Source of the DNA: Candidatus Dependentiae bacterium | GTDB taxonomy: Bacteria > Babelota > Babeliae > Babelales > Vermiphilaceae | Assembly: GCA_026389015.1 (NCBI GenBank) | Contig: JAPLIR010000024.1 | Coordinates: 27,128-91,127, forward strand | Length of the DNA stretch: 64,000 nt | Direction of reading: 5' to 3' | Shown here: in pieces, positions 4,976 through 16,039 of the stretch | How positions within the stretch are numbered: position 1 is the first letter of the stretch | Layout of the letters: the number at the start of each line of letters is the position of its first letter | Notes under the pieces: generated by a model | What the model was told of the DNA's origin: nothing | Seen by the model: only the letters and a program-made list of their open reading frames with translations | Databases searched by the model: none | Made by a program: the position numbers and the translations under genes

Positions 4976-5536
4976 TTAATTGTTGTGACGTAGTAACTTT
5001 ACGCAGTCTGGGTGGTCCCACAGAGTTGCTATTCTGTGCGCCGTTTCGCCATTACTGTTTTGTGCGTTGCGATCTGCACCATGGTCCAGGAGTAATTGTA
5101 TAGAGAGTGGATTGCCAGATCGTGCAGCCCAGATCAGTGCTGTATCTCTACCATTTTTTTGAATAGTAGTGTCCGATTTTTTTTCAAGAAGGAATGCGAT
5201 ACTTTTGTTTTTGTTAGCATGAATAGCAAACATAAGTGACGTTTTTCCATATCTGTTGTACGCATTAATGTCGGCTTGTTTTTCTAGGAGTATCCCAAGA
5301 CATTCTGTGTCGCCACTAAATGCTGCATGCATGAGTGGCGTGCTATGGTAATCGTCGCGAGTATTAACATCGGCCTTGCGATTAATGAGATTGGAGGCTG
5401 CGGTGGTATCGCGCACGTTAACTGCTCGTATGAGTTCTTTATTAAGGGTTATTTGTTGGTGGTTGAGCATTGCAAAAAATGCGCTGGGCATAAAGCAGTG
5501 TGCCATGAAAATTGCTTTGGGGATGCTCTTGATCAT
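4976..5536 (-). CDS. Secreted ankyrin-repeat protein
   Basis: 186 residues with a short hydrophobic N-terminus (about 1-22) that may be a signal peptide, then about four ankyrin repeats. The consensus is visible in STPLMHAAFSGDTECLGILL, TSLMFAIHANKNKSIAFLLE and TALIWAARSGNPLSIQLLLD. Ankyrin repeats bind proteins; in intracellular bacteria such proteins are often effectors, but no partner is indicated here. It ends close to a terminator shared with rpsT. One of five ankyrin proteins in the window. Confidence 0.85.
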   Translation of the reverse strand: MIKSIPKAIFMAHCFMPSAFFAMLNHQQITLNKELIRAVNVRDTTAASNLINRKADVNTRDDYHSTPLMHAAFSGDTECLGILLEKQADINAYNRYGKTSLMFAIHANKNKSIAFLLEKKSDTTIQKNGRDTALIWAARSGNPLSIQLLLDHGADRNAQNSNGETAHRIATLWDHPDCVKLLRHNN

Positions 5537-5566: not shown

Positions 5567-6082
5567 TTAGTAGTGGTGAATTAAGTCTGCATCATAATCA
5601 GCCATATGGAATAATGGATTTTCTATTGGGCCTAATCCTGAATCTCTGCTCATGACATCAAGCAGAATCTGATGTTTTTTTGCTTGAACTTTGTTTGATT
5701 GCCCGTAAAGATAGCAATAGGTCATCCAGCTTGCAAGCCAGGCGGTTATTTTTGTGGTGAGTTCGTGACGGTTACCCGCTAGGTCTTTTGAATTAACAAG
5801 AGTGTTTCTGATCATAGGTTCAACGATAAAAGATAGTGCTATGCCTTTATTGCTCGTTATATCAGTTAAACCTTGGCCTAGTGTAGCGGTTAAGGTTCCT
5901 ATAACCGCACCATGGAGCACGCCGAGGACAAAGCCCTTAAGGTTATTAGTGGGCTTTATTTCTTGAGTACTTTGCGTTGTTGGTTCAGTATTAATGATAT
6001 CGGATGCTTGTATGGCACATGGAGCTGGTACTAATAAAGCGATGCTGAATGTGATAATGAGCAATTTTTTGTGATTATCCAT
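5567..6082 (-). CDS. Secreted/membrane protein of unknown function, paralogue of the next gene
   Basis: 171 residues, family not recognised. A signal peptide is clear at about 6-27 (ends CAIQASD). A Gly/Ala-rich hydrophobic stretch (FVLGVLHGAVIGTLTATLG, about 51-69) resembles a glycine-zipper membrane segment. A later motif, FIVEPMIRNTLV followed by ITAWLASWMTYCYLYG, reappears in altered form in the protein at 6127-6588, so the two are tandem duplicates. It is transcribed toward the ankyrin gene, 30 bp away. Confidence 0.7.
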   Translation of the reverse strand: MDNHKKLLIITFSIALLVPAPCAIQASDIINTEPTTQSTQEIKPTNNLKGFVLGVLHGAVIGTLTATLGQGLTDITSNKGIALSFIVEPMIRNTLVNSKDLAGNRHELTTKITAWLASWMTYCYLYGQSNKVQAKKHQILLDVMSRDSGLGPIENPLFHMADYDADLIHHY

Positions 6083-6126: not shown

Positions 6127-6588
6127 TTATACAAAGATATAGGGGGTGCCGTTAGGTGTTACAAATTGATATGTCTTTGTTACTTTAAGAGTTGCCCGAG
6201 ATTGGTTTCTAAATATTGCGCATTTTTCTGGATAAAGGGCTGCATAGGTGAGCAAATAGCTAATCCAACTTGCACAGCGAGCATAGTATTGAACTTGCTT
6301 GGTATCTAAGTCGTTATCTTCAGCGATGTCTTGAGCAAGTTGACTTCTCATGCTTGGTTCAAGAAAATAAGAGATAATATTACCTGCAAAAGGTATCTCT
6401 AGCAGAAAGGTGGCAGCTGATAGCGTTCCCGATATTGTTCCTATGGCAGCACCATAGAGCATGTTTTTATAGCGGACTGCAGATTTTTTTTGTTGCAAGG
6501 GTGCTGAGCTTGTATTTTCATTGTCAGTGTGAATAGCCATTGAGCACGAAATCATGAGGGATAGGAGTATTAATGATCTAAAATTCAT
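6127..6588 (-). CDS. Secreted/membrane protein of unknown function, paralogue of the previous gene
   Basis: 153 residues, family not recognised. A signal peptide spans about 1-19 (MNFRSLILLSLMISCSMA). A Gly-rich hydrophobic segment follows at about 44-62 (MLYGAAIGTISGTLSAATF). Then come FLEPSMRSQLAQDIAED and ARCASWISYLLTYAALYP, which line up with VEPMIRN and LASWMTYCYLYG in the neighbour. AGAGA lies upstream of the ATG. The stop is 45 bp before the next start, and a two- or three-gene operon with the ankyrin protein is likely. Confidence 0.7.
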   Translation of the reverse strand: MNFRSLILLSLMISCSMAIHTDNENTSSAPLQQKKSAVRYKNMLYGAAIGTISGTLSAATFLLEIPFAGNIISYFLEPSMRSQLAQDIAEDNDLDTKQVQYYARCASWISYLLTYAALYPEKCAIFRNQSRATLKVTKTYQFVTPNGTPYIFV

Positions 6589-6691: not shown

Positions 6692-8449
6692 TTAGCTTAT
6701 AAGAGGCTCGGGTTCTTCGGCCTCTATTTTTCTAAAATCCATGAGTTTTTTATAATCAACCACAAAGTTTTTGGCAATTTCGGTGGCAGCGCGAGACGAT
6801 CCAACGTTCTCTGCCATTACTACAATAGTAAGTGGGGGGTTGTTTTTATACTTTAAGTAAGCGACAAACCAGCCATGTTCCAAGTATTGGATGCCCAACT
6901 CCCGCTTGCTATAGGTGCTGATCTGTGCCGTACTGGTTTTTGCATAAATTTCAATATCTTTTACCCGACTGATTCGTATGCCGGTACCCTTGGTGACTAC
7001 CGATTGCATAGATTGACGTAGAAAATCTAGGGTTGATTTTTTTATGGTGAGTGGTCGTTGTTGAATCGGCTCTTCCTGCAGAATGCGTGGTTTGACCAAA
7101 TATTGGGTGAAAATACTGGAAATCATGCAGGCAACTTGAATAGGGGTCACTAATAAGAAACTTTGGCCAATTGCTGCCGAGAGTGTTTCGCCCGGCCACC
7201 AGCGTTCACCTTTGACGCGTTTTTTCCATGCCGAGGTTGGAATCAAACCATCGGTTTCAGGAAAACAAATATTAGTTTTCTCTCCCAAGCCAAAAATATG
7301 GGCGTATTCGGCTAGGGTATCGATGTCGATATGTCGTGCAATATCAAAGAAAAGAATGTTACATGATTGTGCGAGTGCTTGTTGTGGCGTAAGAGTACCG
7401 TGTCCATCACGACGCGAACAATAATAGCGTCGTTCGCAAAAGGTACTGTAGCCATGACAGGTGATGCTGGAGTCGGGTTTAAGATAGCCATTTTCAATTG
7501 CTGCGCAGGAAGTGACGAGTTTAAAGATCGATCCTGGCGGGTAGGATGAAGTGAATGCGCGATTTAAAAAAGGGTGTTTGTCTTGTAAGATGCTCCATTG
7601 CTCAGCATTGATGGGATTTAAAAATATGTTAGGATCAAAATTGGGACGCGAGACTAGTGCTACAATGGCACCATCGTTGGGATCCATGACAATAAAAGTA
7701 CCTGCTTGTTGTTCGGGGAAGATTTGTTCGCAAATGTTTTGCATGTCGATATCAATGGTTGTTTCAATGTTTCGGCCACTCAGGGCTTCTTTAAGTTCAA
7801 CTTCTGCTAGATTTCTACCAACAGAATTTATTTTTTTAATGGTTGTGCCATGTTCGCCCTTGAGCGTTTCTTCAAACATTTTTTCAAGGCCCATTTTTCC
7901 TTGTGGTTCAAGATTCATGGAACCAAGATAGCCTAGGATATGACAAGCAAAGGTTTTATGGGGGTAGAAACGTTTAAAGTGGGTTGCAATAGTAATGTTT
8001 TGATCGGCGGAAAATTGTTCTTGAAGTTGGCTTAATTGTTCAAAGGTTAAATCGGACGTGAGTAAGAGCTTGTGTTGCTTTTTTTCTGCCATCATAATTG
8101 TTTGTAAAATATTGATATCAGTTGTGAGTGGCTTGTCGATGATAGTAGCTATTTTTTCAAGTACCGTGCGCTGTAAGTCACTGAGAGTGGTATTACCAGT
8201 GCCGCGCCAATAAACGTTGGTCAGCGGTCGATTGGTAGCGAGTAATACGCCAGAACAATCGAGGATGTTGCCGCGTGGTGATTGTATTTTTTCAATACGG
8301 GTACAATTCTTTTCACTTTGTTCGAGTAATGCATCGCTCTGCTTAATTTGTAAATAATAAAGACGGATGCCAATGAGCATAAAACCAAGCATAATGCAAA
8401 AAGGCAAAAGGATAATTTTAGCATTGAGCGTATGAGATTGTTGTTGCAT
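6692..8449 (-). CDS. mrdA: Penicillin-binding protein 2 (peptidoglycan transpeptidase)
   Basis: Class B PBP that crosslinks peptidoglycan during elongation. The 585 residues have an N-terminal TM helix (about 11-32), a dimerisation domain, and a transpeptidase domain with SxxK (SIFK in YPPGSIFKLV, about 307) and SxN (SCN, about 360). The third motif reads KTS (AKTSTAQ, about 502) instead of KTG/KSG, which is unusual. The start lies 6 bp after the stop of the upstream xer gene with no clear RBS, so translational coupling is likely. Length fits the family. FtsI-type PBPs are a less likely alternative because the neighbours are not dcw genes. Confidence 0.92.
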   Translation of the reverse strand: MQQQSHTLNAKIILLPFCIMLGFMLIGIRLYYLQIKQSDALLEQSEKNCTRIEKIQSPRGNILDCSGVLLATNRPLTNVYWRGTGNTTLSDLQRTVLEKIATIIDKPLTTDINILQTIMMAEKKQHKLLLTSDLTFEQLSQLQEQFSADQNITIATHFKRFYPHKTFACHILGYLGSMNLEPQGKMGLEKMFEETLKGEHGTTIKKINSVGRNLAEVELKEALSGRNIETTIDIDMQNICEQIFPEQQAGTFIVMDPNDGAIVALVSRPNFDPNIFLNPINAEQWSILQDKHPFLNRAFTSSYPPGSIFKLVTSCAAIENGYLKPDSSITCHGYSTFCERRYYCSRRDGHGTLTPQQALAQSCNILFFDIARHIDIDTLAEYAHIFGLGEKTNICFPETDGLIPTSAWKKRVKGERWWPGETLSAAIGQSFLLVTPIQVACMISSIFTQYLVKPRILQEEPIQQRPLTIKKSTLDFLRQSMQSVVTKGTGIRISRVKDIEIYAKTSTAQISTYSKRELGIQYLEHGWFVAYLKYKNNPPLTIVVMAENVGSSRAATEIAKNFVVDYKKLMDFRKIEAEEPEPLIS

Positions 8450-8455
8450 GGAGGA

Positions 8456-9379
8456 TTAATCTTCTTTGTTAGGGAGCATACCACGTAATGGATGTTTAGT
8501 TTCGCACATTTTAGAAAGTTCTTCCAGTGAAACATGGGTATATTTTTCGGTGCTCGCTAAGGTCTTGTGGCCTAGGAGTTCTTGTACAACCCGTAAATCG
8601 GTTCCTTGATTGAGAAGATGGGTTGCAAATGAATGGCGAATCTTGTGGGGTGTAATTTTACGCTCAATGTGTAGGAATGACCGGAACATCTCAAACATTC
8701 TTTGAATTGAACGGCTGGTCAGAGGTTGGCTGCGATAGTTGAGAAACACATACTCATCAAGATTGTGTGGTGTTGGCCGTTCATGTTTAAGATATTGGTT
8801 CAACTTATCCTGTGCTTTTTGTCCAAAGAGCACCAGGCGTTCTCTGTTGCCTTTACCGCGAATGCGAATGGTCTTGTTCGGGGTGTCGATATCTTTAAAG
8901 CGTATGCCAATGAGTTCTGAGCATCGAATGCCGGTTGCATAAATGAATTCAAAAATTGTTTTATCGCGAATCGGATATTTTGTAGGCAGCTCATTATCTT
9001 GAATAGTATCGAGTAGGTGGAATATTTCATCGACACTTAAGTAGAGCGGTAATTTTTTATCAAGGCGTGGCCGTTTTAGCTTTAATGATAGAGTAATGCC
9101 GCAGGTGTGCAGAAATTTTTCGAATGATTTAAAGCAGGAGAATTTCCGTGCGATGGTATTCTTATCAATTTTTTTATAAAACAGGCTGACTAAAAATCGT
9201 TCGATGACTTGACGTACTTCCAAATGTTGTTGATCTTCCGCGCTTAATTCATGCCAGAATGTGATAAATTGGTTCAAGTCGCTCTCGTAGGCACGGTAGG
9301 TGTTATCAGCTAAGTTCTTTTCAACATGGAGATAGATTAAAAATTGCTCTTTTCTGTCTATAAACTCTGCTAGCGTCAT
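8456..9379 (-). CDS. xerD: Tyrosine recombinase of the XerC/XerD type
   Basis: Site-specific recombinase, in most bacteria used to resolve chromosome dimers at dif. The 307 residues have an N-terminal SAM-like core-binding domain (about 5-95) and a catalytic domain. Visible are Arg in ATGIRCSELIG (about 150), HKIRHSFATH (about 243, the HxxR box), GHKTLAS (about 270) and the nucleophile Tyr in STEKYTHVS (about 279). The RBS AGGAA lies 6 bp before the ATG. It is a full-length housekeeping type rather than a phage integrase. XerC versus XerD cannot be settled from this copy alone. Confidence 0.9.
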   Translation of the reverse strand: MTLAEFIDRKEQFLIYLHVEKNLADNTYRAYESDLNQFITFWHELSAEDQQHLEVRQVIERFLVSLFYKKIDKNTIARKFSCFKSFEKFLHTCGITLSLKLKRPRLDKKLPLYLSVDEIFHLLDTIQDNELPTKYPIRDKTIFEFIYATGIRCSELIGIRFKDIDTPNKTIRIRGKGNRERLVLFGQKAQDKLNQYLKHERPTPHNLDEYVFLNYRSQPLTSRSIQRMFEMFRSFLHIERKITPHKIRHSFATHLLNQGTDLRVVQELLGHKTLASTEKYTHVSLEELSKMCETKHPLRGMLPNKED

Positions 9380-9393
9380 TATAAGTTCCTTAA

Positions 9394-12129
9394 CTATGCT
9401 AAATTATAATCCTTGCAGCGACGATTAACCGATGAGCGATTGACCCCAAGGAAGGCGGCAATTTGATTTTGATTTTTAAATTTGTTCCATAATAGACTCA
9501 TGATTTTTGGATCGCGCAATGCATGCTTTCCTAAATTTGAGGCTTCAGTGAGTTCGGGGTCACTGATGGCATATGCAGGACTGAATTGCGTTTCGTTATA
9601 AATTTGGTTCTTTTTAGATTTCAAGATAAGCGCTTGATAAATTTTGTTTTTTAATTCGTGCAAGCTTGCCGGACGATTCATGAGTAATTTATTTTTTTCT
9701 TGTGGAGACAATTCGAGTAACGATTTAAAGGCTTGTGTTTTGAGGAGTTGCTCAGTAAATCCATGGATAAGGTCTAAAAATTCTTTTTCTGGAATGATAC
9801 TCAGGGGTGGAAGTTCAACGGTTGTAGCGTGTAATATTTCGAACAATGACTTTGAAAAAGTATTATCGTGCACCATCATCTGGAGATTTTGTTGTGTTGA
9901 GCAGATAACGCGAACATTGCTGTTTATTTTTTGATCACTTTTTGTTACGCAATATTCACCAGTTTTCAGGTAGTCAGCGAGCATCTCCTGTGTTTCTAGA
10001 TGCAAGAATTCAACGTTTTTGATATAGAGTGTTCCATTGTTATCTAACTTTTTAAACAATGGCTGAGCATTGCTGTTGCCAAATATAGGATTGACGCCGA
10101 ATAATTTGATTGAGGTGTCGGTGTTTTTATCATAGGTGGCAAGGTTCAAGGTAAAAAGAATTTCCCTATTACTGGTTCGGTGCAGCAGTTCAACTGCTGG
10201 CAGCACGTCATCTTCGGGGAATTCAAGCAAGGTGGCCTTGGTGCTTAAAGCTACTTTAAGTAAATCAAATTTAAAGTGTAACAACAGTTCTTGATATCCA
10301 GGGACCATGTGATTAATGAGTTGTCCCGTTTGTGTTGTTTCTAAATAGAGTAAATAGTCCCACTTGCTAGGATCTTTGAGTTGAGTGATTTGCTTGGTGA
10401 TAATGTCAGAAATTTCTGGATAATAGACGGTGATAATAACATTGCTGTGTTCTAGATTGGGTACACCGCAGAGCACTAGCTTATTGTCGTGTATGTCTCT
10501 GGTTATGATTGTTTGTGATGATTTGTACTCTTCGACTTGGCGTGCAATGAGCTTTAATGCTTGGGTGAGCGAGTGGCCTTCTTGCTTATTGATGTTGATT
10601 TGTATTAATTCTTTTGCCGTCTGATTGCCAAAAACAAAGCGTCTATTTTTATAAAAAATGATACCGATTTCTTTTTGCTTGGTGGGTCGCAAAAATGATC
10701 GGATACTTTCTTTATACAGATTGATTGTTTGGCGAGAGCTGGCCAGTTCTTCTCTGAGTTCTTTTGCTTCGTGGATGAGGGGTTCAATGTTTTGATGTTG
10801 TAACAAGTTGAGCGTATTGCTCAGATAGTTTGCAAACACTAACATTTGATCCCGTTCAATGTTGCTATAAAATTCTCTGATGCGTGTGTGTCGTTCAATA
10901 ATAATATAAGCTGCTATTCTTTGTTTATCATAAATGGGTAAAAATACGTCAGCATTAATACCTTCTAAGAAATCAAGTACTTTTTTTTGATTGGGGTCTT
11001 CATTATAAAAATGAGTGAAATCAATTTCATCGTAAATGAGAATCTTTTGTTTATGAATGAAAAGGCATAGCTCTGAATCGTGGCCATTCATAAATTGTTC
11101 TACCGTATCTTCCAGCTTATGCAGGTCTTTAGCTCGGTGAAAATTGGGCGTTTGTGTATTATTGGCTCGAATACAGATCATTGTTTTACGTACGGGGATA
11201 TGGAATGCTTCTTTAAAAAATGTTTGCACAATATGATCTAATTCTTGAGCGCTGTTTATTTTGCCGAGTTGTTCAAAAACATTCTTAAAGTCATCAATAA
11301 AATTAAAGGTGTGTTCAGATTGTACGTGGCTGTGGAAATTTAAAAATCGTAATCCCATAACCCGTTGCATGCAGTAATAGATGACATAAATGAGGAGTAG
11401 GGTGGAAACACTGACGGTTGTATAAACATATACCCCAAAAAATTTAAATAAAAAATGAGCGGCTTGTAAAAATTCGATTAATACATAGGGGAAGATTAAA
11501 AATTGAATAAAAGTACGGAGTTGTTTTTTTAGAATTTTAGGCACATTGGAAAAGCGCAATTTTTTGAACGTTACGTAAAGGCTCGGCATGAGAATAAGAC
11601 TAAATAAATAATACACGAGATAACGCATGATAGAGATTTCTAGGGGGATACCTGCAACGAGTGTTTTTGCTTGGGCTCGTTCAAACTCGTCAATGAGGCT
11701 GTTGTCAAAAAAAGCGATATAAAAGAAATAAATACTAAAAATTGTTCCTATCAGGGTGAAGACTTTGTGTGAAGTACGGAGCTTGAAGTTTTTTTCGCTT
11801 AAACTTTCAATAAACAATGCGAGTGATTGATATTGAATAATGAGAAAGCCCCACGCAATGCGTATAAAAAAAGTTGGCAGAGCATAATTTGTATGTGGCG
11901 CCCACAATTCTCGTGTTAATTTTATAATCCAAGCAATATCACCAAACATTGATCCTATGAGGAAGCCCAGCAAAAAGAACCAAGATTTTTGAATATTGGT
12001 TGATCGAAGGCCTTGTGGAATAAGGATGCTCAAAAAATAAATTTTAACGGAGAACGCAAGGAGGATAGCCACCAATAAAAATATGGGGCTCGAGACGGTG
12101 CTGCTAATAACTTCTACTACATGTATCAT
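9394..12129 (-). CDS. Membrane regulator: 7TM-GAF-PAS-degenerate sigma54-type AAA-Fis HTH (paralogue 1)
   Basis: 911 residues. About seven TM helices cover residues 10-270, in the style of histidine-kinase sensor regions. A GAF-like domain follows (about 285-455), then a short coiled coil, a PAS-like segment (GIIFYKNRRFVFGN, about 500), a domain aligning with sigma54-activator AAA+ modules (about 605-830), and a Fis-type helix-turn-helix ending the protein (FKNQNQIAAFLGVNRSSVNR). The ATPase is dead by eye: where GESGTGKE is expected it reads EFPEDDVL, the Walker B Asp/Glu of FLDEI become IKNV, and the GAFTGA loop is lost. The layout suggests a membrane-tethered DNA-binding regulator that senses a ligand. 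No phosphorylation site is evident. The tandem paralogue lies upstream, and the gene follows xer closely. Confidence 0.75.
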   Translation of the reverse strand: MIHVVEVISSTVSSPIFLLVAILLAFSVKIYFLSILIPQGLRSTNIQKSWFFLLGFLIGSMFGDIAWIIKLTRELWAPHTNYALPTFFIRIAWGFLIIQYQSLALFIESLSEKNFKLRTSHKVFTLIGTIFSIYFFYIAFFDNSLIDEFERAQAKTLVAGIPLEISIMRYLVYYLFSLILMPSLYVTFKKLRFSNVPKILKKQLRTFIQFLIFPYVLIEFLQAAHFLFKFFGVYVYTTVSVSTLLLIYVIYYCMQRVMGLRFLNFHSHVQSEHTFNFIDDFKNVFEQLGKINSAQELDHIVQTFFKEAFHIPVRKTMICIRANNTQTPNFHRAKDLHKLEDTVEQFMNGHDSELCLFIHKQKILIYDEIDFTHFYNEDPNQKKVLDFLEGINADVFLPIYDKQRIAAYIIIERHTRIREFYSNIERDQMLVFANYLSNTLNLLQHQNIEPLIHEAKELREELASSRQTINLYKESIRSFLRPTKQKEIGIIFYKNRRFVFGNQTAKELIQININKQEGHSLTQALKLIARQVEEYKSSQTIITRDIHDNKLVLCGVPNLEHSNVIITVYYPEISDIITKQITQLKDPSKWDYLLYLETTQTGQLINHMVPGYQELLLHFKFDLLKVALSTKATLLEFPEDDVLPAVELLHRTSNREILFTLNLATYDKNTDTSIKLFGVNPIFGNSNAQPLFKKLDNNGTLYIKNVEFLHLETQEMLADYLKTGEYCVTKSDQKINSNVRVICSTQQNLQMMVHDNTFSKSLFEILHATTVELPPLSIIPEKEFLDLIHGFTEQLLKTQAFKSLLELSPQEKNKLLMNRPASLHELKNKIYQALILKSKKNQIYNETQFSPAYAISDPELTEASNLGKHALRDPKIMSLLWNKFKNQNQIAAFLGVNRSSVNRRCKDYNLA

Positions 12130-12158
12130 AATGATTATTGATTTTAATGCGCTGAATA

Positions 12159-12164
12159 ATTATA
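12159..12164 (-). promoter_or_regulatory. Predicted -10 box of regulator paralogue 1
   Basis: Minus-strand TATAAT in the context TAGTATAATTATT, about 30 nt upstream of the ATG at 12129. The same TAGTATAAT string occurs at the same place before paralogue 2. No good -35 is visible, so an activator may be needed. Confidence 0.35.
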
Positions 12165-12238
12165 CTACCACTCAGTATGTTATTAAAAAGATAACATGCT
12201 GACAATAATAATAACGTTTTAATTGCAAAGGACAAGCT

Positions 12239-12280
12239 ATGTTCGGATGGCCACCACCAGCACCTGCTGTTTCATTATAA
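12239..12280 (+). CDS. Candidate 13-residue peptide gene divergent from regulator 1
   Basis: ATG to TAA encoding MFGWPPPAPAVSL, with AAAGGA about 6 bp before the ATG. It lies between the two giant regulators and is divergent from regulator 1. Regulator 2 also has a mini-ORF in the equivalent position (15185-15289). Function unknown; a signal peptide for the 7TM sensor or a leader peptide are guesses. An ORF this short can occur by chance. Confidence 0.3.
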   Translation: MFGWPPPAPAVSL

Positions 12281-12378
12281 TTTTTAAAGTTACGAGTGCC
12301 AGCTTTTGGACCGTAAATTTAAAATAATTTTTTTTGAGGCGAGAGAAGTGAAGCTGATAGAAATTTATGCCGGTGCAG

Positions 12379-15093
12379 TTAGAATAAATTATAATCTTTG
12401 CATCGGCGATTTATTGATGAACGATTCACGCCCAAAAATGTTGCCATTTTATTTTGATTTTTAAATTTGTTCCATAATAACGCCATTATTTTGGGGTCCC
12501 GCAGTGCGTGTTTACCCAGGCGTGCCGCTTGTATAATGTCCGGATCGCTTATTTCATACGCAGGATCAAACTGCGTCTCTTGATAGATTTCATTCTTTTT
12601 TGATTTCAAAATTAGTGTTTGTTGCACTTTCTCCTTTACTTCTTTGAGGCTTATAGGCCGCTGATGCGATATTTTTATTTGTTCTTGATTGGTTAATGCC
12701 AAAAGATTTTTGAAGGCATTATTTTTATGCAATGCTTGATCTGCAAAGCCTTGTGCTAAATTATGCAGTTCATGCTCGGGAATGGTGAGCAGTGACGGCA
12801 TGGAGAGTGAAGTCTTTTTGAGTTCGTTAAACAAGTTTTTAGAAAATTTACCCTCTTGTGTCATCGATTGCAAATCTTGGTTGGTTGAGCAGACAATGCG
12901 GATATTGCTTGGAATTTTTTGATCACTCTTAAATACGCGATAAAAACCATAACGAATAAATTCGGCAAGATGCTCTTGTGTATCGAGCGAGAGGCATTGA
13001 ATGTTTTTAATAAAGAGCGTCCCGACTTCATCGAGTTTTTTGAGTAATGGTTGTTGCGTGGCAGTTGATAAACCAAAGAGTGGGTTTATGCCAAACAGTT
13101 TTACTGCCGTATCAAAATTCTTTTCCGGACCTTCTAAATGGAGTATGTGGAGAGTTTCTCGCAAACTTATGTGATGCAAGAGCTCAACCGTTGGCAGCAA
13201 ATCTTCTTCAGGCATGGAGAGCAAGGTCGCTTTTTTGCTTAATGCTGTCTTGAGTAAGTTTATTTTAAAGTTAAGGAGTTGTTCCCCTGATCCAGGAACC
13301 AGCTGATTGATGAGTTTTCCTGATTGAGTAGTCTCAAGATAGAGTAAATAATCCCATTTGCTTGGATCTTTAAGTAAATCTATTTGTTTAGTGATAATAT
13401 CGGAAATTTCTGGATGATAGATGGTAATAATGACGTTGCTTTGTTCCAAGTTGGGAACACCGCAGAGCATTAATTTTTCCCCATCGCTATCGGTAATCAT
13501 AGAAGATTGTGCTGTTTTGTAATCTTCCACTTGATGGGCGATTTGTTTAAGTGCTTTTGTTAGCGGATGGCCTTCTTGGGTATTAATGTTTATTTTAACC
13601 AGTTCTTTGGCGGGTTGATTGCCAAAAATAAAGCGTCTATTTTTATAAAAGATAATACCAATTTCTTTTTGTTTACTGTGTTTCAAAAATGAGCGAATAC
13701 TTTCTTTATACTGGCCGACCTCAAGGTGCTTATTGTACAGCTCTTCCTTGAGCTCTTTTTCTTGGTGAATCAGAAGTTCTAAGTTTCTTGTTTGTAATAA
13801 GTGGATGATATTGCCCAAATAGCTGGTGAACACGAGCATCTCGTCTCGTTCGATGTTAGTATAGAATTCAGCGCGAGCATCTCGTTCGACAATAATGTAG
13901 GCAATCACTTTTTGTTGCTCATAGATGGGGATAACCACATCGGCATTAATGGTTTCCATAAATGCATGCATGGTGGTGATAGTTTGATTCTTTTCATAAA
14001 ATTGACTGAAGGCGATTTCATCGCGAATCAGGATTTTGTTATGAGCAATAAAGGCACTAATTTCATCGTCATGAGCGTTAAAGATGTGTTCTGCATGGAG
14101 CTCAATATGGCTGATTTCCTGTTTGGCCATGTTGGTATTTTTGTTGCTGTTTTCCATATTACGCATAAAAAGCAGCGTGCGACGTAGAGGAACGTGAAAC
14201 CCATCTTTAAAGAATGTTTGGGTGATATGCCCCAACTCTTGAACGGTAGTTGCATGGCTGAGTTGTTCTAATATGTCTTTAAAGTTATTGATAAAGCTAA
14301 ATTTTTGATGCGCTTGTATCTGTGGTTGAGTATTCAAAAAGCGTAAGCCAATGATTTTGCGTGCACAGTAGAAGATGGCGAAAGTTAATAAGAGACTTGA
14401 TATGTTTGCTATTGCATGAGCTCGAGCAACAGACATTTCAGAGTTAAAAGGGAAAATTTGGATAAAGTCTAAAGCGAGGTGGGGAATAATCAGAACCTTA
14501 ATAATGATTTTAAGTTGTTGCTTTAAAATTTTTGGTAAAGATGAATCACGTAATTTCATGAGGGTATAAAACAGCGTAGAAAGCATTAACAAGAACTTTG
14601 AGTAGAGTGTAAATGCTTGTTGTATGAACGGCTGAATTGCTACTCGATCGCTGATTTGAAAGCAATTGAAATTGTATATAGCCAATCCAATAAAGGATAA
14701 GCCAAACATGCTACTTATAAATATAAATAATTTTTGGCGAATATTGAATGGTTGTGTTTTATCAATAAGACTTTCTATGAATAATGCCAATGCCTGGTAT
14801 TGCACGATAAGCGCAATCCATGCAACACGAACCCATAAAGTTCTAAGTCGGTAATCAAGTGTGGGAAAGATATTGAGTATTAATTTCATTATCCATGCTG
14901 AATCGGCAATAAGTGAGCTTGCTAGTACAAAGACTAATAAAAGCCAGGAACGCTTAATGGGTTCGGTGGGATTTTTTTTAAGAAGTGCAGCAAGAATACA
15001 TGCCTTTAATACATACGCTGTAATCGTAGTTATGGAAAGAAAGAGGATGCTGGCAACAATTGATTCAATTATTGATAAAAGTGTGTAAAGCAT
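12379..15093 (-). CDS. Membrane regulator: 7TM-GAF-PAS-degenerate sigma54-type AAA-Fis HTH (paralogue 2)
   Basis: 904 residues, a clear tandem paralogue of 9394-12129 with the same order: about seven TM helices (to about 265), a GAF-like domain (about 280-450), a PAS-like segment (GIIFYKNRRFIFGN), a degenerate AAA module and a C-terminal Fis HTH (FKNQNKMATFLGVNRSSINR). The ATPase site is again destroyed: SMPEEDLL stands at the P-loop and GTLFIKNI at Walker B. The TM part is the most diverged and the PAS and HTH parts the most conserved. This suggests the same DNA-binding logic with different inputs. It has its own TATAAT-like box at 15121-15126 and 249 bp of spacer before paralogue 1, so the two are probably transcribed separately. 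Confidence 0.75.
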   Translation of the reverse strand: MLYTLLSIIESIVASILFLSITTITAYVLKACILAALLKKNPTEPIKRSWLLLVFVLASSLIADSAWIMKLILNIFPTLDYRLRTLWVRVAWIALIVQYQALALFIESLIDKTQPFNIRQKLFIFISSMFGLSFIGLAIYNFNCFQISDRVAIQPFIQQAFTLYSKFLLMLSTLFYTLMKLRDSSLPKILKQQLKIIIKVLIIPHLALDFIQIFPFNSEMSVARAHAIANISSLLLTFAIFYCARKIIGLRFLNTQPQIQAHQKFSFINNFKDILEQLSHATTVQELGHITQTFFKDGFHVPLRRTLLFMRNMENSNKNTNMAKQEISHIELHAEHIFNAHDDEISAFIAHNKILIRDEIAFSQFYEKNQTITTMHAFMETINADVVIPIYEQQKVIAYIIVERDARAEFYTNIERDEMLVFTSYLGNIIHLLQTRNLELLIHQEKELKEELYNKHLEVGQYKESIRSFLKHSKQKEIGIIFYKNRRFIFGNQPAKELVKININTQEGHPLTKALKQIAHQVEDYKTAQSSMITDSDGEKLMLCGVPNLEQSNVIITIYHPEISDIITKQIDLLKDPSKWDYLLYLETTQSGKLINQLVPGSGEQLLNFKINLLKTALSKKATLLSMPEEDLLPTVELLHHISLRETLHILHLEGPEKNFDTAVKLFGINPLFGLSTATQQPLLKKLDEVGTLFIKNIQCLSLDTQEHLAEFIRYGFYRVFKSDQKIPSNIRIVCSTNQDLQSMTQEGKFSKNLFNELKKTSLSMPSLLTIPEHELHNLAQGFADQALHKNNAFKNLLALTNQEQIKISHQRPISLKEVKEKVQQTLILKSKKNEIYQETQFDPAYEISDPDIIQAARLGKHALRDPKIMALLWNKFKNQNKMATFLGVNRSSINRRCKDYNLF

Positions 15094-15120
15094 AAATTAT
15101 TGATCTTGTAATAACTCTAT

Positions 15121-15126
15121 ATTATA
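15121..15126 (-). promoter_or_regulatory. Predicted -10 box of regulator paralogue 2
   Basis: Minus-strand TATAAT in the context ATAGTATAATATAG, about 28 nt upstream of the ATG at 15093. It shares TAGTATAAT and the following ATCAATAAT with the paralogue 1 leader. Confidence 0.35.
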
Positions 15127-15184
15127 CTATCGAATGTCATAAATATATTTACTAATTATAAAATTTTATTCACTAAGGGGCTCT

Positions 15185-15361: not shown

Positions 15362-16039
15362 TTGAAGTTGCCGGACCCAGATTCTACCTTAAGAATCATG
15401 AAAATTATCCATATACTGCGCCAATCGACGCAAGCATATGTTCAGCCGGCATCAATTACCCTCGTCAAACAGTATGGCCGAGATCCGTTTTTGGTCTTGG
15501 CCAGTTGTCTTTTAAGTCTCAGAACCAAAGATACGGTCTCCCTCCCTGCTTCACAGCGCCTTTTTGAGTATGCTAAAACGCCTCAAGAGATGCTCAAAGT
15601 TCCCTTGGCCATCTTAGAAAAAGTTATTTACCCTGTTGGTTTTTATCGCCAAAAAGCTCGGACACTCCATCATATCAGTGCTGAGCTCCTGGCTAGGTTC
15701 AATGGCCAGGTGCCAGAAACGTTTCAAGAACTTATTTCACTCAAAGGTGTTGGGCCAAAAACGGCCAACCTTGTCCTAGCAGAGGGTTTTAATATCCCCG
15801 CCATTTGTGTCGACACTCATGTGCACAGAATCTCCAATCGATTAGGTATTGTAAAAACCAGCACGCCGGAAGAAACCGAGCGGGAACTTAAAAAAATCCT
15901 ACCACAAGAATATTGGCGTGAATGGAGTAGTCTTATGGTCATGTGGGGTCAAAATATCTGTATGCCTGTTTCGCCTTTTTGTTCAAAGTGTCCTATAGTC
16001 GATCTATGCCCCAAGGTCGGGGTAAAAAAACGACGTTAA
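15362..16039 (+). CDS. nth: Endonuclease III (base-excision repair DNA glycosylase/AP lyase)
   Basis: Removes oxidised pyrimidines from DNA and cleaves abasic sites. The 225 residues have a helix-hairpin-helix LKGVGPKTANLVL with the catalytic Lys (about 133), the catalytic Asp in VDTHVHR (about 151), and a C-terminal 4Fe-4S set at about 200, 207, 210 and 216 (C-x6-C-x2-C-x5-C). The start chosen is TTG at 15362 because AGGAG sits 7-8 bp upstream; an ATG at 15398 without a good RBS would drop 12 residues. It stands alone, with a hairpin terminator further downstream. Confidence 0.93.
   Translation: MKLPDPDSTLRIMKIIHILRQSTQAYVQPASITLVKQYGRDPFLVLASCLLSLRTKDTVSLPASQRLFEYAKTPQEMLKVPLAILEKVIYPVGFYRQKARTLHHISAELLARFNGQVPETFQELISLKGVGPKTANLVLAEGFNIPAICVDTHVHRISNRLGIVKTSTPEETERELKKILPQEYWREWSSLMVMWGQNICMPVSPFCSKCPIVDLCPKVGVKKRR

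Follow-up and report, generated by a model that had tools for sequence, protein, structure and literature searches.

What do two relatives of sigma54 activators do in a bacterium in which no sigma54 is found, once they have lost the motifs on which such activators depend? The question is raised by two tandem open reading frames (ORFs) on the minus strand of a 64,000-nt stretch of contig JAPLIR010000024.1 from a Candidatus Dependentiae bacterium, which we refer to as the window (genome 1.33 Mb, 96.9% complete). The upstream ORF encodes protein B (904 aa, 12379..15093), the first tandem copy, assigned as an ORF and by family search, and the downstream ORF encodes protein A (911 aa, 9394..12129), the second copy, assigned as an ORF and by comparison with B; compared over their full length the two are 52% identical. 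We propose, with a probability of roughly 70%, that A and B are one-component membrane regulators in which a predicted seven-helix and GAF/PAS sensor acts via an ATPase-dead sigma54-activator AAA+ domain on a Fis-type helix-turn-helix (HTH), probably at sigma70 promoters.

The first-pass annotation of this DNA held that both proteins keep the scaffold of the sigma54-activator AAA module while Walker A, Walker B and GAFTGA are gone, and this proves correct well beyond the pair. We assembled 78 full-length family members, namely A, B and 76 proteins from 60 loci, which were fetched by place from 55 of the 67 genomes that carry the family (only ORFs longer than 700 aa were counted). The Walker A and Walker B patterns and the sigma54-contact loop GAFTGA are each absent from all 78 members and from all 120 listed database relatives, and a search for an ATPase motif hidden elsewhere in these 78 and 120 sequences found none. 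The central domain is nevertheless predicted to adopt the AAA+ fold of sigma54 activators, and no different fold, with the catalytic residues gone. In B, residues 626-634 (SMPEEDLLP; 13192..13218; all features of A and B given here lie on the minus strand) stand in place of the Walker A P-loop. Asp631 within this stretch is Asp in 78/78 members, and residues 625-634 include at least two Asp/Glu in 74/78. At the Walker B position (residues 691-698, GTLFIKNI; 13000..13023) the acidic pair has become Lys-Asn; the Glu column holds Asn in 70 of the 78, and a few members retain a single acidic residue (Asp in the Asp column in 2/78, Glu in the Glu column in 1/78). The arginine-finger and sensor-II columns are mostly substituted as well, with Ser (60) and Glu (53) in the arginine-finger columns of the 78 members. 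By these residues the core is dead. Three of the 120 listed database proteins carry the label 'sigma 54-interacting transcriptional regulator'.

Around this core, structure prediction places an input and an output. Residues 1-253 of B (14335..15093) contain seven predicted transmembrane helices, based on AlphaFold2 (AF2) helices, loop charges and hydropathy; AF2 gave eight N-terminal helices, of which the first two were counted as one, and the positive-inside count favours an N-out/C-in orientation. Then follow a predicted GAF domain (residues 267-436, 13786..14295; from a model of residues 258-572), a long helix that is likely a coiled coil (residues 438-470, 13684..13782; from AF2 secondary structure), a predicted PAS domain (residues 479-562, 13408..13659; from a match of the model to the SrrB PAS), the pseudo-AAA+ domain of sigma54-activator type with its lid (residues 577-845, 12559..13365), and a Fis-like HTH with a near-invariant recognition helix (residues 850-904, 12382..12546). 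Pfam GAF_2 matches 4/24 family members at E<=0.1. Alignment to B bounds the pseudo-AAA+ domain of A at residues ~585-852 (9574..10377) and its Fis-like HTH at ~857-911 (9397..9561). DhaR and TyrR are among the NCBIfam models that score best against A, and VpsR (titled c-di-GMP-binding) is among the structural matches of the AAA+ core. The receiver profile Response_reg matches neither A nor B at E<=1, so that the domain expected of an NtrX is absent. By prediction, then, transmembrane helices and a Fis-like HTH occur in one chain, as is characteristic of transmembrane one-component regulators, and A and B are predicted to connect, via the ATPase-dead core, a membrane sensor of seven helices with a domain that binds DNA. 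The earlier description of the pair as membrane-bound pseudo-ATPase transcription factors is supported by this anatomy, with regulatory activity and loss of ATP binding suggested at the level of sequence.

The partner of a working activator is also missing. The RpoN domains PF04552 and PF04963 each match 0/101 Dependentiae genomes, with 4/14 control genomes positive, and the third RpoN domain, PF00309, has no match in the window's own genome; the supposition that A and B no longer remodel sigma54 thus agrees with what is found in this genome and across the phylum. Because no sigma54 was found in the 101 genomes, it is likely that A and B regulate genes from the membrane directly. The single Sigma70_r2 match in the own genome is RpoD. 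We also considered PF00158 as a phylum census of bacterial enhancer-binding proteins (bEBPs), and rejected it as unspecific, since it matches 101/101 phylum genomes but also 14/14 controls, archaea included. Its matches in the own genome number five, two of them A and B.

The DNA in front of the genes points to a possible target. Upstream regions of family genes have in common GTATAAY-N15-RRTCAATA, a few bases 5' of the ATG. Before B this reads GTATAAT-N15-GATCAATA (15098..15127, minus strand), ending 4 nt 5' of the ATG, and before A it reads GTATAAT-N15-AATCAATA (12136..12165, minus strand), ending 6 nt 5' of the ATG. By eye, the GTATAAT before A and B is -10-like with no evident -35, and a CAATA-type box lies near the start codon. 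A looser pattern occurs at 18/79 family ORFs, partial ones included, versus 0/513 other ORFs at the same loci (Fisher p 3e-17, with kinship among the sequences ignored). Over 29 genomes of the family the pattern occurs 13 times, 10 times directly before family genes; one of the other three (in G081, G090 and G094:C12) has an ORF start 82 nt further on and two have none nearby. Exactly two places match in the own genome, before A and before B. When the pattern is relaxed, the own genome gives 17 matches versus 7 for the reversed pattern; a regulon drawn from these was rejected, as only the matches of A and B are both clear of ORFs of at least 100 aa and no more than 10 nt from a start codon. 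A similar pattern matches 45 times in the 101 genomes, 15 times before family genes by coordinates, and 10 times when reversed. The downstream box could act as an operator or as a signal for translation.

The position of the genes is itself conserved. A family protein search matches 69/101 Dependentiae genomes (51/68 of those of high quality); removal of G057 and G061, whose weak matches (E 9.6e-4 and 1.9e-4) are an NtrX-like protein, leaves 67/101. Where present, the family lies mostly between nth and xerC. Over 61 loci (the 60 and the window) the flanks include nth at 45, xerC at 44, PBP2 at 43, thrS at 36 and phoH at 26, and complete loci have the order phoH-thrS-nth-family-xerC-PBP2. In the window the divergent upstream neighbour is nth, encoding endonuclease III (15362..16039, plus strand); downstream, 14 nt past A, lies a xerC/D-type tyrosine recombinase gene (8456..9379, minus strand), followed by that for penicillin-binding protein 2 (PBP2; 6692..8449, minus strand). 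We recovered nth loci from 20 of the 34 family-free genomes and found no family gene in any of them. In 17/20, nth and xerC are adjacent, with 80-430 nt between their aligned parts (the genes are apart in one of the other three, and xerC was not found in two), and the family gene therefore comes and goes mainly at one site. A database search returned 725 proteins at E<=1e-3 among 7990 candidates scored, and the organism names given among the 120 listed matches are Dependentiae or Babeliales, except for one Limnocylindria on a 6-kb contig, taken as misbinned. A scan of an 84,980-species collection, within reach of close relatives only, yielded 14 loci, whose titles read Dependentiae, Babeliales, TM6 or just 'bacterium'.

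Beyond PBP2 and two small ORFs, the window encodes an ankyrin-repeat protein of 186 aa (4976-5536) whose start, by eye, resembles a signal peptide; the ankyrin-protein cluster is seen at 6/61 loci, the window counted in. The small ORFs (5567-6082, 171 aa; 6127-6588, 153 aa) are adjacent, share by eye similar hydrophobic stretches, and have no Pfam match at E<=1e-3.

Has a protein without its motor and its partner simply begun to decay? The small genome, the failure to find sigma54, the 34/101 genomes that lack the family and two short fragments interrupted by a stop (G025:C2:26258-27001 and G074:C27:4172-4279) might suggest a bEBP-like relic drifting before its removal by genome reduction. However, the listed matches show no internal stop besides those two fragments, both copies are retained in several genera of the window's own family, and the proteins are visibly constrained. 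Mean identity to B is 31% in the membrane part, 39% in the GAF domain, 58% in the coiled coil, 50% in the PAS domain, 55% in the AAA core, 43% in the lid and 67% in the HTH, and the AAA dN/dS is 0.04-0.13 in the 7/14 closest pairs with usable synonymous counts, several of which are near saturation (the other 7/14 have saturated or identical sites). Because of this constraint the idea of decay is already contradicted, and we regard it as highly improbable. The first-pass annotation had argued for a selected regulator from the matching positions of motif loss in the two paralogues. Selection is indeed suggested by the low AAA dN/dS, the near-invariant recognition helix and the wide retention, but the argument from parallel loss does not stand. 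As the motifs are absent in all members, their loss predates the duplication of A and B; by sequence it is ancestral, a matter of common descent and not of repeated selection, and the two copies are not independent evidence.

The same conservation could be read in a different way, namely that a nucleotide or some other small ligand is still used in the altered AAA+ pocket, as c-di-GMP is by VpsR, so that the core would sense a ligand besides being a scaffold. Conservation is higher in the core than in the sensor, the core has invariant residues such as K610, D631 and Q706, and VpsR is one of its structural matches; on the other hand, the stretch that replaces the P-loop, acidic in 74/78 members, is unfavourable to phosphate, and we consider a ligand-binding core rather unlikely. 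A nucleotide-independent membrane scaffold that uses its HTH to tether the chromosome, with xerC as a link to chromosome dimer resolution, would fit the conserved position next to xerC and PBP2, the inherent ability of a membrane-bound DNA binder to tether DNA, and the lack of an own-genome regulon beyond the genes' own promoters. Yet the nth-xerC order survives without the gene at 17 of the 20 family-free loci, so that these neighbours do not need it, and GAF together with PAS indicates signalling, which leaves tethering improbable.

Several observations weigh against the regulator that we favour. The signature precedes only 18 of the 79 family ORFs, 30 of the 45 phylum-wide matches are not before family genes, and the surplus of about 20 over the reversed control is unexplained; because of this coverage and these matches elsewhere the signature is not a clean operator everywhere. 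A translational role for the downstream box would also count against us, and the upstream regions contain no clear dyad above shuffled sequence, though one is expected for a dimeric HTH. Pfam recognises the Fis HTH weakly (6/24 members, best E 0.011), the predicted template modelling score (pTM) of the whole model is 0.49, so that relative domain placement is not predicted, and nucleotide binding is ruled out at the level of sequence. The count of sigma factors comes from one Pfam model on a genome 96.9% complete. One genome, G008, has a canonical bEBP with GESGTGKE, GAFTGA and LFLDEI (L050:2372-4549, G008:C6), although its contig, 5.9 kb long, belongs to a bin of 160 contigs with a listed contamination of 4%, no sigma54 was found there, and the gene is likely foreign. 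As 34/101 genomes are without the family, the phylum can live without it. Finally, the DNA binding, the signal or ligand and the target genes of A and B are ones that we infer.

The tandem arrangement provides further insights into how input and output may have evolved. Two or three full-length copies are present at 16/61 loci, and in a FastTree tree with midpoint root the first and second copies of several own-family genera fall in separate clades, from which we conclude that A and B stem from an old duplication. In 16/18 copy pairs identity is lowest in the membrane part; between A and B it is 33% there, 59% in the AAA domain and 80% in the HTH. At locus L116 the two copies share 1962 identical nt that begin at aligned nt 759 (near residue 253, at the membrane boundary) and run to the gene end, with the membrane part 73% identical in DNA. 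At L115 the membrane part is 74% identical and the other domains are 93-96% identical. Because synonymous divergence shows the same break (0.80 in the membrane part vs 0.18-0.34 in the rest at L115, and 1.54 vs 0 at L116), gene conversion of the cytoplasmic half is likely, and not selection alone. The tract at L116 could have arisen in assembly, being an exact 2-kb repeat from a metagenome bin; L115, with non-identical copies and the same break, is the safer case. Between the two copies at L116 there is a fragment of nth (8360-8635; G007:C7:46859-47134), 40% identical to that of the window, as though a joint duplication of nth and the family gene had once taken place.

A different regulator occurs in other lineages of the phylum. 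An NtrX-like protein is present at E<=1e-40 in 15 genomes of three other families, none of which has the window family. Among its 120 listed relatives GAFTGA and the Walker B pattern are absent in 120/120 and the Walker A Lys is retained in 116/120. It thus resembles the window family as a bEBP-like protein without GAFTGA and Walker B, and differs in having a receiver (REC) domain in place of the membrane sensor and in mostly retaining that Lys. HisKA kinases occur in 17/101 genomes, comprising 13 of the 15 NtrX-like genomes, G062 and the family-bearing G008, G087 and G098; none is found in the own genome. Either the family or the NtrX-like protein is present in 82/101 genomes, and neither in 19 at the thresholds used, some of these being incomplete. 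By eye the kinases of the family-free lineages are NtrY-like; NtrY_N matched weakly (E 2e-4, below its cut-off) in the one scanned (L222). A two-component fusion of an NtrY-like sensor and NtrX was considered and rejected, as N-terminal profiles against the ORFs of 14 kinase loci gave a best E of 0.33 for the whole N-part and 0.16 for a single part. Of the NtrX-like genes at L042:1137-2438, L041:1771-3069 and L043:1388-2665, the first comes after genes for an MlaE-family permease and an ABC ATPase, with a similar setting by eye at the other two.

Compared with known systems, the family resembles the bEBPs NtrC, PspF and DmpR in its AAA+ fold with lid, its ELFG and GTLFL-like scaffold and its C-terminal Fis-like HTH, and GAF/PAS inputs are found among bEBPs too. 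In contrast to them, no collected member has Walker A, Walker B or GAFTGA, no sigma54 is found in the genome, and seven predicted membrane helices stand in front. VpsR, TyrR, DhaR and Rhodobacter capsulatus NtrC are soluble proteins, and the outputs of ToxR and CadC are winged HTHs. In passages of two accounts (PMC3162934, PMC10274813) the first four are described as lacking GAFTGA and VpsR as acting without ATP; the second places VpsR and R. capsulatus NtrC at sigma70 promoters, with ATP binding still needed by the latter. The family is like the VpsR/TyrR type in the absence of GAFTGA, the same AAA+ fold and a Fis-like HTH (by model and weak family matches), but it has lost the P-loop as well and is predicted to reside in the membrane. 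With ToxR, CadC and TcpP it has in common a membrane part and a cytoplasmic HTH in one polypeptide acting from the membrane; the relevant part of PMC10269533 gives ~56% of transmembrane transcription regulators as single-pass and 27% with >2 membrane regions, and an AAA+ core does not appear among those it covers. The earlier remark that no such family had been described holds among the papers listed by searches of the open-access literature (subscription journals lie mostly outside it), where we found no description of seven helices, GAF, PAS, dead AAA+ and Fis HTH in one protein.

A plausible model for these membrane regulators is that a signal at the membrane or GAF/PAS part alters the coiled coil and the dimer state, that the pseudo-AAA+ domain, rather than working as a motor, provides a scaffold and a surface for interactions, and that the paired HTHs bind close to promoters, those of the family itself among them (autoregulation), with A and B acting together with sigma70 RNA polymerase. 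The tandem copies would then receive different signals via their diverged membrane parts and address the same DNA sites via nearly the same HTH. More tentatively, and at somewhat less than even odds, a sigma54 activator may have been converted to a family of seven-helix receptors with a dead core that replaced two-component signalling in most lineages, the tandem copies making up a small repertoire of receptors and gene conversion equalising the output half while the sensor diversifies, so that signals converge on one promoter set.

Dependentiae are described as intracellular in part of one account (PMC12172432), and few regulators are reported for them, five being predicted for Babela in a passage of another (PMC4378268). 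If our proposal is true, the database label 'sigma 54-interacting transcriptional regulator' would be corrected, and the signature together with the conserved recognition helix makes the DNA target directly testable. It would show what the AAA+ fold of an activator is capable of without ATP, a motor protein having become a passive relay of signals throughout a phylum without its partner, and it would name the main route from membrane to gene in Dependentiae.
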